From: Rhodothermus marinus
GTDB taxonomy: Bacteria; Bacteroidota; Rhodothermia; Rhodothermales; Rhodothermaceae
Assembly (NCBI RefSeq): GCF_009936275.1
Contig: NZ_AP019797.1
Coordinates: 2,711,890-2,775,889, forward strand
Direction of reading: 5' to 3'
Length of the DNA: 64,000 nucleotides
Shown here: positions 2,195 to 32,257 of the stretch, in pieces
How positions within the stretch are numbered: position 1 is the first letter of the stretch
Layout: the number at the start of each line of letters is the position of its first letter
Translations under genes and position numbers: made by a program
The notes under the pieces: model-generated
The model's input: only the letters and a program-made list of their open reading frames with translations
Database searches by the model: none
What the model was told of the DNA's origin: nothing

Positions 2195-2422
2195 AATGAC
2201 AGCGAATCCCGATCTCTGCTCGCCTTAAGATACAAACCCGACGCGAAAATCGGTTCGTGCACGAACGTTCACCCCGGCCTCAGGTTCATGCAGCTTTACC
2301 GAAGACACGTGCCCGGATGACATTCTGACGCACCCGTTGGCCCGGCACTGTTCTTGAGCAAAGGCCGGCACGGCATCTGAGTGGTGCAATTTGTCGGACC
2401 TTTAAAACCATAGTAGTGAACG

Positions 2423-25404: not shown

Positions 25405-26016
25405 TCACGTGTTGAGCGAGGCCGACACGCTGCGGCCGGCCCCCTGCAGGCTCTGCAGGACCAGCGGCGTCAGCCAGGCGGCCACAGCCTCCGGGGCTTC
25501 CTCGCCGGTCAGGCGCTGCCAGCAGTAGACGCCCTGCACCAGTCCGAGACACGCCCGCGCCGCCGTGTCCGGCTCGGTAGTCGCCACAAAAACGCCCTGC
25601 TCGATGCCCTCGACAATCACCTCGTTCCAGCAGGTTTCGTACTGCCGGAGCAGCTCCTGCAGGTCGATCGCAAGCACCTCCTGCAGCGCTTCCCGGCCTT
25701 CGCACTGCAACAGCAGCCAGCTCTCCTGCTCGGCGGCCAGGCTTTGCAGGTGCTGCGCGATAAGGCGGGTCAGCTTTGCCGCGGGCGAATCGTTGCCCGC
25801 GGCAATCTCGCGGGCCTGTTCCAGCAGACGTCGGAGCGGCGTCTCGACGACCGCCCGCACCAGGTCGTCTCTGCTGGCCACGTAGTAGTACAGCGCGCCC
25901 CGGGGCACGCCCAGCTCGTCGGCCACATCCTGCAACCGCGTCTGCTGCAGCCCCTTACGTCGGAATACCCGGGCCGCCGCCCGGTAGAGTTCCGCTTCGC
26001 GCCGACTTCGTTCCAT
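25405..26016 (-). CDS. TetR-family transcriptional regulator
   Basis: A 203-residue regulator. The N-terminal helix-turn-helix (about 8-52) has ELYRAAARVFRRKGLQQTRL, DVADELGVPRGALYYYVASR and DDLVRAVV. The C-terminal ligand domain has the form seen in FadR-like TetR repressors of fatty acid degradation. GGGAAGAG lies 6 nt before the ATG at 26016. It sits inside the minus acyl-CoA arm, 5 nt before the CoA transferase gene. Its likely targets are the palindrome at 31426-31439 and the weaker copy at 30493-30506, with acyl-CoA as inducer; both are inferences. Confidence 0.92.
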   Translation of the reverse strand: MERSRREAELYRAAARVFRRKGLQQTRLQDVADELGVPRGALYYYVASRDDLVRAVVETPLRRLLEQAREIAAGNDSPAAKLTRLIAQHLQSLAAEQESWLLLQCEGREALQEVLAIDLQELLRQYETCWNEVIVEGIEQGVFVATTEPDTAARACLGLVQGVYCWQRLTGEEAPEAVAAWLTPLVLQSLQGAGRSVSASLNT

Positions 26017-26043
26017 CGCTGCTCTTCCCGTTTGTCCCCGTTG

Positions 26044-26077
26044 CCGGCCGGGTTCGGGCAATCCCGAACCCGGCCGG
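26044..26077 (-). promoter_or_regulatory. Long perfect hairpin between the TonB receptor and tetR genes
   Basis: A perfect 15-bp stem (26044-26058 with 26063-26077) with a 4-nt loop CAAT lies in the 74-nt gap after the receptor stop codon and before tetR. No T run follows on the minus strand. It may protect the receptor mRNA 3' end, weaken read-through into tetR, or be a processing site. Confidence 0.6.
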
Positions 26078-26090
26078 ATGGTGTTGTGGT

Positions 26091-28778
26091 TCAGCGGCCG
26101 CCCACCGTGTAGGTCAGGCGGGTGGTGATCAGCCGCCCCATCTTGGGGGCGCCGATGTACTCGCGGTGCTCGTTGTTCAGCACGTTCTGGGCCAGCACGT
26201 CGATGCGCAGGCCGGGCGTGAGCCGACGCAGATCGTAGCCCAGCCCCAGATCGAGCAGGAAGTAGCTATCGACGGTGCCCCTGAAAATTCCCGAACGCAC
26301 CTCGAACTTGTCCACATAGCGCCCGGCCAGGTTGACCGACAGCCCGGACGGATCCGTGTATTCGACCCCGCCGGCCATCTTGTAACGCGGCGCATTCATC
26401 GAGATCTCCCGGCCGGTGCCCGGCTCGCCCAGCTCCTCGTCGTCGAAGAAGTTGTCGCTCACCCACGAGAAATTCCCGAACAGCGCCCAGCGCGCATTGG
26501 GCGTCCACTGCACGGCCACATCGGCTCCGTAGTAGTCCACATCCCCGAAGTTCACGTAGGAGAGCAGCAACTCGGGCTTGCGATTCGGATCGAAGTTTTC
26601 CGTCGGTTCGATCAGACCGATCGGGTTAGCCGCCAGACTTGCCGCCGCCTGACGGTAAATGTTCGCCAGCGCCTGCCGATTCAGACCGTAAGGTTGCAAC
26701 TCTTCATCCGTAAAAGCATTTGCCACGGCTGTTGCCAGATCGCCTGCCACGCCGGGTGCCACCACCAGCGGCGTAAAGGGCTGCAACTCGCTGATGAAGT
26801 TTTTCTTGCGCGTGTAGTACAGGTCGATCGTTACCAGCAACTGGTTGGCGAACAACCCCTTGTAGCCCAGTTCGTAGGAGTTCGTGATCGTCTGGCGGGC
26901 GGCCGGGACGTTCTCCAGGCTCGTAAGCACCTCGCCTGACGTGTTCACCATCAATCCAGACGAAAAGCCCTTAATCTGGCTGGCCTTGGCCTTGCTCTGG
27001 AGATAGGCCACCAGCGGACCGGGCAACACGCCCTGCGCGGCCAGTCCGGCCGTCACCGCCTGGTAAGCCACGGCCAGCGGAATGCCCACGCCGGGCCAGG
27101 CGCGAATGCCGGGAATGAAGCTGGAAGTCTGCACCTGGCTCGGGAAGGTCCAGCCATCGACGGCCCCTACCCCGCGCACGCCGAACGGCCCGCGGTCTTC
27201 GATGAACAGATCCAGGAAGAGGTTCACCCCGGGCGGCGTCGTGAAGGCCCGGTTGTAGGTGGTGCGGAAGCTGTGCGTGGGTGAAGGCTTGAAGACAAGT
27301 GCCACGCGCGGCGAAAACTGCGTTTTCTGAATCACATCGTCGTAGTCCAGCCGCCCGGCCAGCACCACGTCGAGCTGCTCGGTCAGACGCGTCTCGGACT
27401 GAACGTAGCCGCCGATCTCGTTCGTCTCGTCGCGTCCCTCGAAGCGACCGTGGATCGTACCGCCCGTGCGGGGCACCGTTCGCCGGTAATCGGCTCCTAC
27501 GATGAAGCTCTGGCGGTCGTCCAGCACGCTGAAGCTGTACTGCGCCTGGGCGGCCATCAGAAACGACTTTTCATAGACCTCGACGGGCGTCCGCACAAAG
27601 TGCGTGTTGCCGTCGTCATTCTGCGTGTAGAATACCTGTCCGAAGAACCCGCCGGCCTGCAGCCGGAGCTGGCCGAAGTAGTTGGCAAAGTTGTCCGTGG
27701 CGTTCTCGCCGGTATTGGCCAGAACCATCTGTTTGATCGAGGAATAGCCGCCGCTTGCCGTCAGCGTGGTCTGCGGCCCCAGCCGGTACTGCAGCGTGCC
27801 ATAGACGTATCCCTGCCAGGTATCGTAATCGCGCCCCCCCCAGCGCGGGTGAATGGCCTCGAGCAATTCACGATCGTGTGGATCATTCGGGTCCAGTTTC
27901 CAGTCCTCACCCTGGCTGTAGTAGCCCACGATCTTGTAGCCCAGTCGGTCGTTGATAACGCCCGCATGGCGCAGCGCGCCCTGGATGATCGAGCGCTCGC
28001 CGCCGCCGAGCATCACCGACGTGCCCGGATAGGTCAGCGGATCTTTCGTGATGAAGTGAATCACACCCTGCTCCACGCCGGCCCCGTAGAGTGCCGAGTT
28101 GGGACCCCGCACGACTTCGATCCGGGCCAGGTCGATCGGCGCGATGGGCATCGACGAAAACTCATTGATGGCCAGGCTTGGCGTGGTGGCCTGTCGGTAA
28201 TCGACCAGCGCATAGGTTTTGGCCACGAATACCGAGTTGAAGCCACGCAGCGATACCTGGAAACGATTCAGGCTGGACTGTGAAATGTCCACGCCCGGCG
28301 TGTAGCGCAGCGCGGCGGCCGTCGCATGCGTGGCCGTCTGCTCCAGATCGCGCGCGTCGAGCACCGAGATCGACGCGGGCGACTCCAGCACTTTTTCCTG
28401 ACGGCGCGAGGCCGTCACCACCACGGGGTTCAGGCCGAGTTCGACCGGCGCCAGCGCCAGATCGACCGTTACCGTGGCACCGGCCGTCAGCGTGACCGTA
28501 CGCCGGGCATCGGCGTAGCCGACGAAGCGGGCTACCACCTCGTAGGTACCGGCCGGCAGGTTTTCCAGCCGATAGCGGCCTTCCAGATCGGTTGCAGCTC
28601 CCCGAAAAGCCGCCGTCTCCCCGGGCCGATAAAGCACCACGTTGGCGCCGGGCAACGGATCACCGCTTTCGGCGTCGGTCACCCGGCCCTGCAGCGTGGC
28701 CATCGATTGCGCGGCCGCCAGACCGGGAAGGAGCACCAGCGCGGCCAGCAACCAGAGACGCGTGAGCATGTGGGGCAT
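26091..28778 (-). CDS. TonB-dependent receptor with carboxypeptidase-regulatory N-terminal domain
   Basis: An 895-residue outer membrane receptor. The signal peptide ends at AAAQS. A CarboxypepD_reg-like domain (about 25-110) follows, with LQGRVTDAESGDPLPGANVV and GTYEVVARFVGYADARRTV. The plug has VLDARDLEQTATHATAAALR and IARIEVVRGPNSALYG, and the barrel ends in TRLTYTVGGR. I used ATG 28778; a GTG 11 codons upstream (28811) is also possible. It lies between the acyl-CoA ligase and tetR genes on the same strand, so its ligand is probably a hydrophobic acid or lipid used by this cluster. Confidence 0.92.
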   Translation of the reverse strand: MPHMLTRLWLLAALVLLPGLAAAQSMATLQGRVTDAESGDPLPGANVVLYRPGETAAFRGAATDLEGRYRLENLPAGTYEVVARFVGYADARRTVTLTAGATVTVDLALAPVELGLNPVVVTASRRQEKVLESPASISVLDARDLEQTATHATAAALRYTPGVDISQSSLNRFQVSLRGFNSVFVAKTYALVDYRQATTPSLAINEFSSMPIAPIDLARIEVVRGPNSALYGAGVEQGVIHFITKDPLTYPGTSVMLGGGERSIIQGALRHAGVINDRLGYKIVGYYSQGEDWKLDPNDPHDRELLEAIHPRWGGRDYDTWQGYVYGTLQYRLGPQTTLTASGGYSSIKQMVLANTGENATDNFANYFGQLRLQAGGFFGQVFYTQNDDGNTHFVRTPVEVYEKSFLMAAQAQYSFSVLDDRQSFIVGADYRRTVPRTGGTIHGRFEGRDETNEIGGYVQSETRLTEQLDVVLAGRLDYDDVIQKTQFSPRVALVFKPSPTHSFRTTYNRAFTTPPGVNLFLDLFIEDRGPFGVRGVGAVDGWTFPSQVQTSSFIPGIRAWPGVGIPLAVAYQAVTAGLAAQGVLPGPLVAYLQSKAKASQIKGFSSGLMVNTSGEVLTSLENVPAARQTITNSYELGYKGLFANQLLVTIDLYYTRKKNFISELQPFTPLVVAPGVAGDLATAVANAFTDEELQPYGLNRQALANIYRQAAASLAANPIGLIEPTENFDPNRKPELLLSYVNFGDVDYYGADVAVQWTPNARWALFGNFSWVSDNFFDDEELGEPGTGREISMNAPRYKMAGGVEYTDPSGLSVNLAGRYVDKFEVRSGIFRGTVDSYFLLDLGLGYDLRRLTPGLRIDVLAQNVLNNEHREYIGAPKMGRLITTRLTYTVGGR

Positions 28779-28859: not shown

Positions 28860-30437
28860 TCACGACAATCCGGCGATCTCCCGTTCGCGCTTGACCAGTT
28901 CCCGCCGCAGAATCTTACCCGAAAGTGTCTTGGGAATCTGATCGACGAACTCCACGCGCCGGATCTTCTTGTACGGTGCCACCCGCTCGGCCACGTAGGC
29001 CATCAGTTCTTCCGCCGTGGCCTGCATGCCGGGCTTGAGCACCACATAGGCCTTGGGCACCTCGCCCGCCTCTTCGTCAGGACTCGGCACGACGGCCACG
29101 TCGGCCACGGCCGGATGCCCCTGCAGAATCTCCTCCAGCTCGGCGGGAGCCACCTGATACCCCTTGTACTTGATCAGCTCTTTGACGCGATCGACGATGT
29201 ACAGATAGCCGTCCTGATCCACACGGGCCACGTCGCCCGTATGCAGCCAGCCTTCCTCGTCAAGCGTGTCGCGCGTGGCCTGCGGGTTCTTCCAGTAGCC
29301 CTTCATGACCTGAGGCCCGCGGATCCACAGCTCGCCCGTCTCGCCCTCCGGCACGTCTTCGTGCGTGGCCACATCGACGATCCGGAATTCCGTGTTCGGT
29401 ACGGCCACGCCCACCGACGAGAGCTTGATCGGAAAGCCGCGCGGCGTGAAGTGCGTCACCGGACTTGTCTCGGTCATGCCGTAGCCCTGGCGCACCGTCA
29501 CGTTCAGGCGCTCGGCACACTGACGGGCCACCGGCTCGGGCAATGGTGCCGCGCCGGAGTTGACATAGCGGAGACTGGAGAGATCGTACTGATCCACCAG
29601 CGGGTGCTTGGCCAGCGCCAGGATGATCGGCGGCACCAGAAAGGCTGTGGTGATTCGATAGCGCTGGAGCAACTCCAGAAACTGCTCCAGATCGAAGCGC
29701 GGCATGGTCACCACCGTGGCCCCGGCATGCAGCGCCATGCTCATGATGACCGTCATGCCGTAGATGTGGTAAAACGGCAGAATGCCGATGAGCACCTCGT
29801 CGTCCTCGAACTGCTCGACGGCCATCGTCTGGGCAATATTCGCCACGATGTTGTAGTGCGTGAGCATGACGCCTTTGGGACGCCCCGTGGTGCCGCTCGA
29901 ATACGGCAGCACCACCAGATCTTCGCGCGGGTTGATGTCCACGGCCGGCGGTTCGGTCCCGTGCTGCAGCAGCTCGGCCAGCGGCGTGGCCCCGTCGGCC
30001 TCCCCGATGACGATCACCTCCTCCACACCGGTGCGTTCGGCTGCCGCCCGGGCATTTTCCAGAAACAGCGGGAACGTCACCAGAAATCGCGCCCCGGCGT
30101 CTTCCAACTGGTGCGCCAGTTCATCGACCGTGTAGAGCGGATTGACCGTCGTCGTGATACCACCGGCCATCGCCACCCCGTAGAAGACCACGGCATACTC
30201 CGGCAGATTGGGGCTGTAGAGGGCCAGCACGTCGCCCTTGCGAAAGCCCCGGGCGGCCAGTCCGGCGGCAAAAGCCCGCGCCTGCTCCCGGAGCTGCGCG
30301 TAGGTGAGCGTGTGCCCGGTCATTCCCTCGATGAGCGCCGGCTTATCCGGGTGCTCATCTACCCGCTGAAAGACCATCTCCGGAAGCGGGATTTCCGGAA
30401 TCTCCACATCGGGAAACGGGCTGCGGTAAATATGCAT
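28860..30437 (-). CDS. Acyl-CoA ligase (long-chain fatty acid / 4-coumarate CoA ligase-like)
   Basis: A 525-residue adenylate-forming enzyme that activates a carboxylic acid with ATP and CoA. Motifs are complete: the P-loop YSSGTTGRPKGVML, the acyl site QGYGMTETSP, GELWIRGPQVMKGYW, TGDVARVDQDGYLYIVDR and VKELIKYKGYQVAPAELE, and the catalytic lysine in PKTLSGKILRREL. The ATG at 30437 gives MHIYRSPFPDVEIPE; a GTG at 30452 is an alternative. The likely role is entry of imported acids into the pathway. A promoter candidate carrying a degenerate operator lies just upstream. Confidence 0.93.
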   Translation of the reverse strand: MHIYRSPFPDVEIPEIPLPEMVFQRVDEHPDKPALIEGMTGHTLTYAQLREQARAFAAGLAARGFRKGDVLALYSPNLPEYAVVFYGVAMAGGITTTVNPLYTVDELAHQLEDAGARFLVTFPLFLENARAAAERTGVEEVIVIGEADGATPLAELLQHGTEPPAVDINPREDLVVLPYSSGTTGRPKGVMLTHYNIVANIAQTMAVEQFEDDEVLIGILPFYHIYGMTVIMSMALHAGATVVTMPRFDLEQFLELLQRYRITTAFLVPPIILALAKHPLVDQYDLSSLRYVNSGAAPLPEPVARQCAERLNVTVRQGYGMTETSPVTHFTPRGFPIKLSSVGVAVPNTEFRIVDVATHEDVPEGETGELWIRGPQVMKGYWKNPQATRDTLDEEGWLHTGDVARVDQDGYLYIVDRVKELIKYKGYQVAPAELEEILQGHPAVADVAVVPSPDEEAGEVPKAYVVLKPGMQATAEELMAYVAERVAPYKKIRRVEFVDQIPKTLSGKILRRELVKREREIAGLS

Positions 30438-30465
30438 GGCGGATTTTTTCACTGATTGAAAGCGA

Positions 30466-30522
30466 TTCCTTTAGCAAAGCTTCACTATAAAATAAACGCA
30501 TGTTCACGCTTGTGCAAACCCA
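30466..30522 (-). promoter_or_regulatory. Candidate promoter with degenerate TetR-type operator for the acyl-CoA ligase gene
   Basis: On the minus strand, TTTG is followed after 20 nt by TATTTTAT, fitting the Bacteroidota -33/-7 pattern. The spacer contains TGAACATGCGTTTA (plus-strand 30493-30506), which matches 10 of 12 fixed bases of the palindrome TGAACG-N2-CGTTCA found intact at 31426-31439. Confidence 0.45.
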
Positions 30523-30544: not shown

Positions 30545-31384
30545 TCAGACAAAAAGATCGGGCATCAATTCGCCCACGGACGGATCGACCGCGTAGGGGG
30601 TGAAGTCCGTGACACCCACCTGACGCAGTACGTCTTCGTCGATAAAGAAATTTCCGGTGCACCGGCGACTGGGCTGCGTCAGGATCACGTGCGCCGCATC
30701 GGCCACGATCTCGGGCTTGCGGGAGCGCCGCACCATCTCCTCACCGCCCAGCAGGTTGCGCACGGCCGCCGTCGCGATCGTCGTGCGCGGCCAGAGCGCA
30801 TTGACGGCCACGCCCGCCTCCCGGAATTCCTCGGCCATGCCCAGCACGCACATCGACATGCCGTACTTCGAGAGCGTGTAGGCCAGGTGCGGCGCAAACC
30901 AGCGCGGCTCCAGCTTCAGCGGCGGCGACAGCACCAGAATGTGCGGATTCTCGGCCTTCATCAGGTGCGGCAGACAGGCCTGCGAGCAGGCAAACGTGGC
31001 GCGCACGTTCACCTGGTGCATCAGGTCAAAGCGCTTCATGGGCGTTTCGAGCGTACCGGCCAGGTAGATCGCGCTGGCATTGTTGACGAGCATGTCGATC
31101 CCCCCGAAATGGGCCACGGCCTGCTCCACGGCCTGCTGAATCTGATCCTCGAAGCGCACATCGACCGGGATCGGCAACGCCTCGCCTCCGGCCGCCCGTA
31201 CCTCCTCGGCCGCCGTGTAGATCGTGCCCGGTAGCTTCGGATGCGGTTCGACGGTCTTGGCCGCAATTACGATACGCGCGCCGTCGCGCGCCGCCCGTAG
31301 CGCAATCGCCTTACCGATACCGCGGCTGGCGCCGGTGATGAACAGCACCTTCCCTTTCAGCGACCCGCCGGTTACAAACTCCAT
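30545..31384 (-). CDS. Short-chain dehydrogenase, HSDL2-like
   Basis: A 279-residue SDR. The cofactor motif [20 protein letters not shown] and the long insert AAKTVEPHPKLPGTIYTAAE are typical of the HSDL2 (hydroxysteroid dehydrogenase-like 2) group. NNASAIYLAGT follows, and the catalytic pair is in AYTLSKYGMSM. In animals HSDL2 carries a C-terminal SCP2 domain; here a separate SCP2 gene lies in the same arm (23829-24161). The substrate is unknown, probably a hydroxy- or keto-acyl-CoA. The ATG at 31384 starts MEFVTGGSLKG. It is the first gene of the minus arm, divergent from the crotonase gene. Confidence 0.9.
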   Translation of the reverse strand: MEFVTGGSLKGKVLFITGASRGIGKAIALRAARDGARIVIAAKTVEPHPKLPGTIYTAAEEVRAAGGEALPIPVDVRFEDQIQQAVEQAVAHFGGIDMLVNNASAIYLAGTLETPMKRFDLMHQVNVRATFACSQACLPHLMKAENPHILVLSPPLKLEPRWFAPHLAYTLSKYGMSMCVLGMAEEFREAGVAVNALWPRTTIATAAVRNLLGGEEMVRRSRKPEIVADAAHVILTQPSRRCTGNFFIDEDVLRQVGVTDFTPYAVDPSVGELMPDLFV

Positions 31385-31397
31385 GATGCCCCTGGAC

Positions 31398-31439
31398 TTT
31401 ATTTCACAACTTGTCCATAGTATATTGAACGAGCGTTCA
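31398..31439 (+). promoter_or_regulatory. Divergent control region with perfect palindrome TGAACG-AG-CGTTCA
   Basis: Positions 31426-31439 form a perfect 6+6 inverted repeat with a 2-nt spacer, in the 78-nt gap between the two divergent arms. A plus-strand promoter candidate (TTTA at 31398-31401, 19 nt, TATATTG at 31421-31427) overlaps its left edge. The core AACG-N2-CGTT resembles operators of PaaR/FadR-like TetR repressors as I recall them. A TetR gene lies in the same cluster. Confidence 0.6.
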
Positions 31440-31462
31440 TTCTCGCAATCCCCGAAACGATC

Positions 31463-32257
31463 ATGCAGGAAGCCGTCCACGAAGAACTGCTCTTTGAATA
31501 CGACGGGCCGGTGGCCGTGTTGACGCTGAACCGACCCGAACGGCGCAATGCGCTCAACCGCACGCTGGAAAAAGCGCTGCACGAAGCGTTGCTGCGCGTG
31601 CGGGACGATCCCGACATCCGGGCCGTGGTGCTGACCGGCGCCGGACCGGACTTCTGCTCAGGAGCCGACCTGAGTTCGTTTCAGGAGATCCCCTCCCCGG
31701 CCTTCGTCCGCCGCCACCTGCTGCAGGTCTATGGCCCCATCGTCGAGCTGATGACCTCCATCGAAAAGCCGATCATCGGGGCCATCAACGGCACGGCGGC
31801 CGGGGCCGGCTGCTCGCTGGCGCTGGCCTGCGACCTGCGCATCATGGCCGACGACGCCAGCCTGATGCTGGCCTTCAGCAACATCGGGCTGGTACCCGAC
31901 ATGGGTGCCACGTTCCTGCTGGTACGGCTGGTGGGCTACGCACGGGCTTTCGAGATGGCTGCCGAAGGCCAGCGCATTCCGGCCGGTCGCTGCCTCTCAT
32001 GGGGGCTGGCCAACCGCATCGTGCCGGCCGACCGCCTGCAAGAAGAAGCACGGCGCTGGGCCCGCGAACTGGCCGCCCGCCCCACGCTGGCGCTGGGCCT
32101 GACCAAGACGGCGCTGCACCACGCACTCACGGCCACGCTCCGCGAAGCGATCGCCTACGAGGCGCTGCTCCAGCAGCAGTGCATCCAGAGCCACGACCAC
32201 CGCGAGGGCATTCAGGCCTTCCTCGAAAAACGTCCCCCTGTGTTCACCGGCAACTGA
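31463..32257 (+). CDS. Enoyl-CoA hydratase/isomerase family protein, PaaG-like active site
   Basis: A 264-residue crotonase-fold protein. The oxyanion-hole segments are FCSGADLSSF and INGTAAGAGCSLALACDLRI. At the position where hydratases have a catalytic glutamate, this protein has D146 in IGLVPDMGAT, as in PaaG-type isomerases. It probably shifts a double bond or hydrates an unusual enoyl-CoA. It starts the plus arm; the amidase ATG lies only 2 nt after its stop. Confidence 0.9.
   Translation: MQEAVHEELLFEYDGPVAVLTLNRPERRNALNRTLEKALHEALLRVRDDPDIRAVVLTGAGPDFCSGADLSSFQEIPSPAFVRRHLLQVYGPIVELMTSIEKPIIGAINGTAAGAGCSLALACDLRIMADDASLMLAFSNIGLVPDMGATFLLVRLVGYARAFEMAAEGQRIPAGRCLSWGLANRIVPADRLQEEARRWARELAARPTLALGLTKTALHHALTATLREAIAYEALLQQQCIQSHDHREGIQAFLEKRPPVFTGN

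Follow-up and report, generated by a model that had tools for sequence, protein, structure and literature searches.

The palindromic sites found in a 64,000-nucleotide stretch of the Rhodothermus marinus genome (the window) are likely to serve as the operators through which a small FadR-like regulon for fatty-acid degradation is controlled. Its repressor is most likely TetR-2, encoded elsewhere in the genome, and not TetR-1, whose gene lies in the window itself. Judged from the sequence, this offers a compact genome-wide prediction for Rhodothermus, made up of four sites with the consensus TRAACRNNYGTTYA and a named candidate repressor. It also corrects which repressor ranks first for testing; a preliminary description of the same DNA had pointed to the TetR gene at 25405, that is, to TetR-1. 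Among the matches listed by a search of the open-access literature for Rhodothermus marinus and TetR, nothing deals with such a regulon. R. marinus strain PRI 493 is mentioned as having been genetically modified (PMC5822342).

Two of the sites lie in the window (Table 1). Operator 1 occupies the 78-bp gap between the divergent starts of the SDR gene (31384, minus strand) and the enoyl-CoA hydratase gene (31463, plus strand), and it is indeed the perfect 6+6 inverted repeat with a 2-nt spacer reported before. The degenerate second site of that report, operator 2, is there as well, matching 10 of the 12 fixed positions of the motif (two mismatches in 12). Does the symmetry of operator 1 by itself mean anything? 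The window has a G+C content of 65%, and perfect 6-2-6 palindromes are common in it: 29 were seen, compared with 27.2 (sd 5.5) in simulated sequence. Palindromicity alone therefore carries no significance, and symmetry was rejected as evidence for function. Exact matches to the 12 bases were absent from 60 simulated windows and from 4 Mb of simulated sequence, and the genome (a single contig of 3,430,829 bases) contains two. Matches with up to three mismatches show no enrichment in the window (26 against 26.9 expected).

Table 1. Positions of the sites, predicted promoters and genes discussed in the text (window coordinates unless marked as genome coordinates).
Feature	Position	Strand	Remark
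TetR-1	25405..26016	-	Candidate repressor of the preliminary description; alternative binder
TonB-dependent receptor	26091..28778	-	Same operon
TetR-3 type 13-bp site, TGAACACCGTTAA	28798..28810	-	Upstream of TonB receptor; in 7/7 Rhodothermus genomes
Fatty acid--CoA ligase (AMP-binding, fadD-like)	28860..30452	-	Predicted target
Predicted ligase promoter	30489..30517	-	Sequence-read; TTGCAC (30517-30512), 17-bp spacer with operator 2, TATTTT (30494-30489)
Operator 2, TAAACGCATGTTCA	30493-30506	.	Acyl-CoA ligase promoter
SDR-family oxidoreductase (PRK08278 subfamily)	30545..31384	-	Predicted target
Weak hydratase promoter candidate	31398..31426	+	Sequence-read; TTTATT-N17-TATATT, -10 at 31421-31426 abuts operator 1
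Predicted SDR promoter	31419..31448	-	Sequence-read; TTGCGA (31448-31443), 18-bp spacer with operator 1, TATACT (31424-31419)
Operator 1, TGAACGAGCGTTCA	31426-31439	.	Between divergent SDR and enoyl-CoA hydratase genes
Enoyl-CoA hydratase/isomerase	31463..32257	+	Predicted target
TetR-2	genome 1902813-1903427		Outside window, 0.84 million bases away
TetR-3	genome 2176493-2177050		TetR-2 paralogue (43% identity)

Both operators are located in predicted promoters. Operator 2 lies towards the 3' end of the ligase promoter's spacer and has two bases in common with the -10 box. This agrees with its earlier assignment to the acyl-CoA ligase promoter spacer, which can now be read on the minus strand as TTGCAC-N17-TATTTT. 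Operator 1 has the same placement in the predicted minus-strand SDR promoter, which had gone unmentioned; the site had been described as overlapping a promoter candidate of the plus arm, and it does touch one, the weaker one in front of the hydratase gene. The minus-strand TTGC and TAT boxes around both operators are conserved in six genomes at 17-18 bp, and the TATATT of the plus-strand hydratase candidate is invariant in six genomes. A protein sitting on operator 1 would obstruct polymerase in both directions.

Comparison within the genus covered seven Rhodothermus genomes, including this one; the divergent SDR/hydratase locus exists in six of them. All six retain operator 1 at an unchanged position, as TGAAC[GA]A[GT][CT]GTTCA, with 11 of 14 columns invariant against 27 of 65 in the non-coding flanks. 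In these six genomes operator 2 follows the pattern TAAACGNN[CT]GTTCA (11/14 invariant columns, compared with 49/91 in the flanks), and it is also found in the seventh, G001, as TAAACACTTGTTCA, giving 7/7 in total. The SDR gene of G001 has a different upstream neighbour, which explains why operator 1 is missing there. In G002, operator 1 reads TGAACAAGTGTTCA, with both arms altered and the symmetry retained, a paired change that would be expected where a dimer binds. As looked for in a TetR operator, the inverted repeat is kept in promoters and its symmetry is kept through changes. Could the palindrome still be a functionless product of chance? This would fit the figures for the window, where neither perfect palindromes (29 against 27) nor approximate matches are enriched. 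However, place, sequence and target genes are the same genus-wide and the change is symmetric, so chance is hardly credible as an explanation. In all likelihood the palindrome is a genuine repressor site, conserved in evolution, that serves genes of fatty-acid uptake and breakdown.

How far does the motif reach beyond the window? Genome-wide scans, a check that the preliminary description had proposed, were carried out as pattern searches. In the 3.43-Mb genome the refined motif matches at just four places, compared with two for the reversed control pattern, and all four fall in promoters of TetR-2 or of fatty-acid genes. Besides operators 1 and 2 they comprise a site that lies 17 bp before the start of a FadL/OMPP1-type porin (PF03349, E 4e-50) and one in the TetR-2 promoter. 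By the lists of the pattern searches the porin site has a counterpart in 7/7 genomes, with the flanks read in five, and the TetR-2 promoter site is kept in 7/7 as well. The TetR-2 operon runs in the order tetR-2, metallo-beta-lactamase-fold protein, zinc-type dehydrogenase and thiolase (PF00108/PF02803). Sites are thus present at genes for import, activation and beta-oxidation, as looked for in a FadR-like regulon, namely at fadL, the ligase, the hydratase, the SDR and the thiolase operon. With import, activation, hydration and thiolysis all placed under a single motif, the set has the anatomy of a fatty-acid degradation regulon, and the proposed tie between a TetR-type operator and acyl-CoA or fatty-acid genes gains support from these four conserved promoter sites. 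Several other matches were set aside. G001, G002 and G004 have extra sites away from these four places, and none of them recurs in the lists of the other genomes. One mismatch to the motif is found in TGCACGAACGTTCA at window positions 2258-2271 (genome 2714147), probably a chance match; it is unchanged in G004, which says little because the region is 97% identical. The one-mismatch genome site at 2063339 was discarded as an operator, as it is not kept in G004, and a further one lies at 2187232.

From the sites, the promoter-like boxes, their conservation, the list of target genes and the site in TetR-2's own promoter, all read in the sequence, we infer binding, repression, TetR-2 as the binder and acyl-CoA as the ligand. 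A TetR dimer bound between the -35 and -10 boxes of the SDR promoter, or of the acyl-CoA ligase promoter, would block RNA polymerase; at the divergent enoyl-CoA hydratase promoter it would sit against the -10 box, blocking polymerase there too. Once fatty acids have been taken up and activated, the repressor would be released by a ligand, most likely an acyl-CoA, leading to joint induction of fadL for import, the ligase for activation and the hydratase, dehydrogenases and thiolase for breakdown. TetR-2, the most likely repressor, would also repress its own operon via TGAACGATCGTTCA.

The predicted regulon can be set beside several known systems. TetR-type fatty-acid repressors, such as Bacillus FadR/YsiA, Thermus FadR, Pseudomonas PsrA and betaproteobacterial FadP, resemble it in that their sites are found both at their own promoter and at genes for import, activation and beta-oxidation. 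The system would thus work like a FadR-type regulon; as for kinship to a named family, TetR-1 and TetR-2 both score far below the curated cut-offs of named NCBIfam regulators. The sites of Bacillus FadR are longer and those of PsrA are GAAAC-N4-GTTTC, so both differ from the Rhodothermus operator. The operator of Pseudomonas DesT, near an acyl-CoA responsive TetR, has a TGAAC half-site like the Rhodothermus one; unlike the targets predicted here, DesT controls a fatty-acid desaturation pathway. The core of operator 1 had been likened to PaaR/FadR-type operators. The PaaR operator consensus of Thermus thermophilus is CNAACGNNCGTTNG (PMC9493321). It shares the core AACGNNCGTT and the 14-bp length with the Rhodothermus sites, so that this part of the comparison stands, but in place of its outer C/G each of the 27 Rhodothermus sites has T/A. 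Thermus PaaR acts on phenylacetate (paa) genes; the predicted targets in Rhodothermus are fatty-acid genes, and the hydratase of the window reaches 234.9 bits compared with a PaaG cut-off of 345. The Thermus FadR operator is the 15-mer TTRNACYNRGTNYAA (PMC5597230), and it was rejected on sequence as a match, since its odd centre and its ACY/RGT core differ.

Which TetR protein would bind the 14-bp sites? The host genome has five TetR_N genes, and TetR-2 is favoured because the operator stands in its own promoter in every one of the seven genomes, while TetR-1 has no such site, is more variable and is absent from G001. The recognition-helix region of TetR-2, SVGSLYLYF, is unchanged in the seven genomes, and its identity among them is 83-99%, compared with 57-91% for TetR-1. 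In Rhodothermus, the region upstream of TetR-1 contains no 14-bp site and has a hairpin instead. This hairpin (26030-26075, GGCCGGGTTCGG...CCGAACCCGGCC), between the TonB receptor and TetR-1, has a counterpart with changed sequence in other species and may be a terminator or attenuator that limits TetR-1 expression. TetR-1 is missing from G001, where its locus showed no remnant; the sites at TetR-2, fadL and the ligase, three of the four, persist in this genome. The short gene that replaces TetR-1 after the TonB receptor there (L113:13360-13700) looks by eye like one for an SCP2 sterol-carrier domain protein.

The earlier choice of TetR-1 is not the best reading of these data, yet it deserves weighing. 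TetR-1 might repress operators 1 and 2, alone or with TetR-2, and so control its own operon, of which its gene is probably a member. On the Bacillus FadR model (NF053878) TetR-1 scores 62.5 bits and TetR-2 40.4 bits, both below the cut-off of 200. Outside the genus, a TetR-1 homologue occurs in only one of 107 genomes of the order, G024, a metagenome-assembled genome of another family that is 83% complete, and of the nine hydratase loci from outside the genus, that of G024 alone has a 14-bp site (TGAACGGACGTTCA, upstream of the hydratase orthologue). Its gene order is ligase-TonB-TetR, the last being the TetR-1 homologue, and no TetR-2 was found among the six TetR genes of this 83% complete genome. 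This combination makes TetR-1 a serious rival or co-regulator. Upstream of the G024 homologue lies the palindrome TTCAAACGTGTGTTTGAA (L112:4345-4395), possibly its own operator, with the same AAC-R-N2-Y-GTT core; against this, sites of that type (TCAAACNNNNGTTTGA) are not enriched in the window and were dropped. A second G024 site (C368:5568) falls inside an ORF and was likewise set aside. With the bare upstream region of TetR-1 in Rhodothermus, its greater variability and the sites that outlast it in G001, we consider repression by TetR-1 unlikely, and the repressor of the 14-bp sites is most likely TetR-2. Might TetR-3 regulate them instead? It is a paralogue of TetR-2, and two genomes of another family, G075 and G076 (L125, L126), have a TetR-3 type site, TTAACGACGTTAA, in front of their hydratase orthologue. 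The site in the promoter of TetR-3 itself, however, is of a different kind throughout much of the order, 13 bp long with one base less in the centre, and a role for TetR-3 at the 14-bp sites is very improbable.

TetR-3 offers a parallel to TetR-2. Its own-promoter site, TTAACNNNGTTAA, is one that Rhodothermus shares with many further genomes of the order. Sites of both types occur in the promoter of the respective regulator and in the SDR-ligase-TonB operon, and they differ in the half-site (TTAAC for TetR-3, TGAAC in the 14-bp sites) and in the centre. As the TonB receptor is preceded by a 13-bp site of the TetR-3 type, two related repressors appear to act on the operon. It is conceivable, with the balance tipping slightly against it, that two paralogues diverged in half-site (TGAAC vs TTAAC) and centre (two-base vs one-base) and came to share one operon, TetR-2 taking the SDR/hydratase and ligase promoters and TetR-3 the TonB receptor, and that the hydratase switched from the TetR-3 type to the 14-bp type of site after the duplication of the regulator. 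With operators of two lengths, 14 bp and 13 bp, in a single operon, such a paralogue pair would be a clean case of repressor and operator divergence after duplication.
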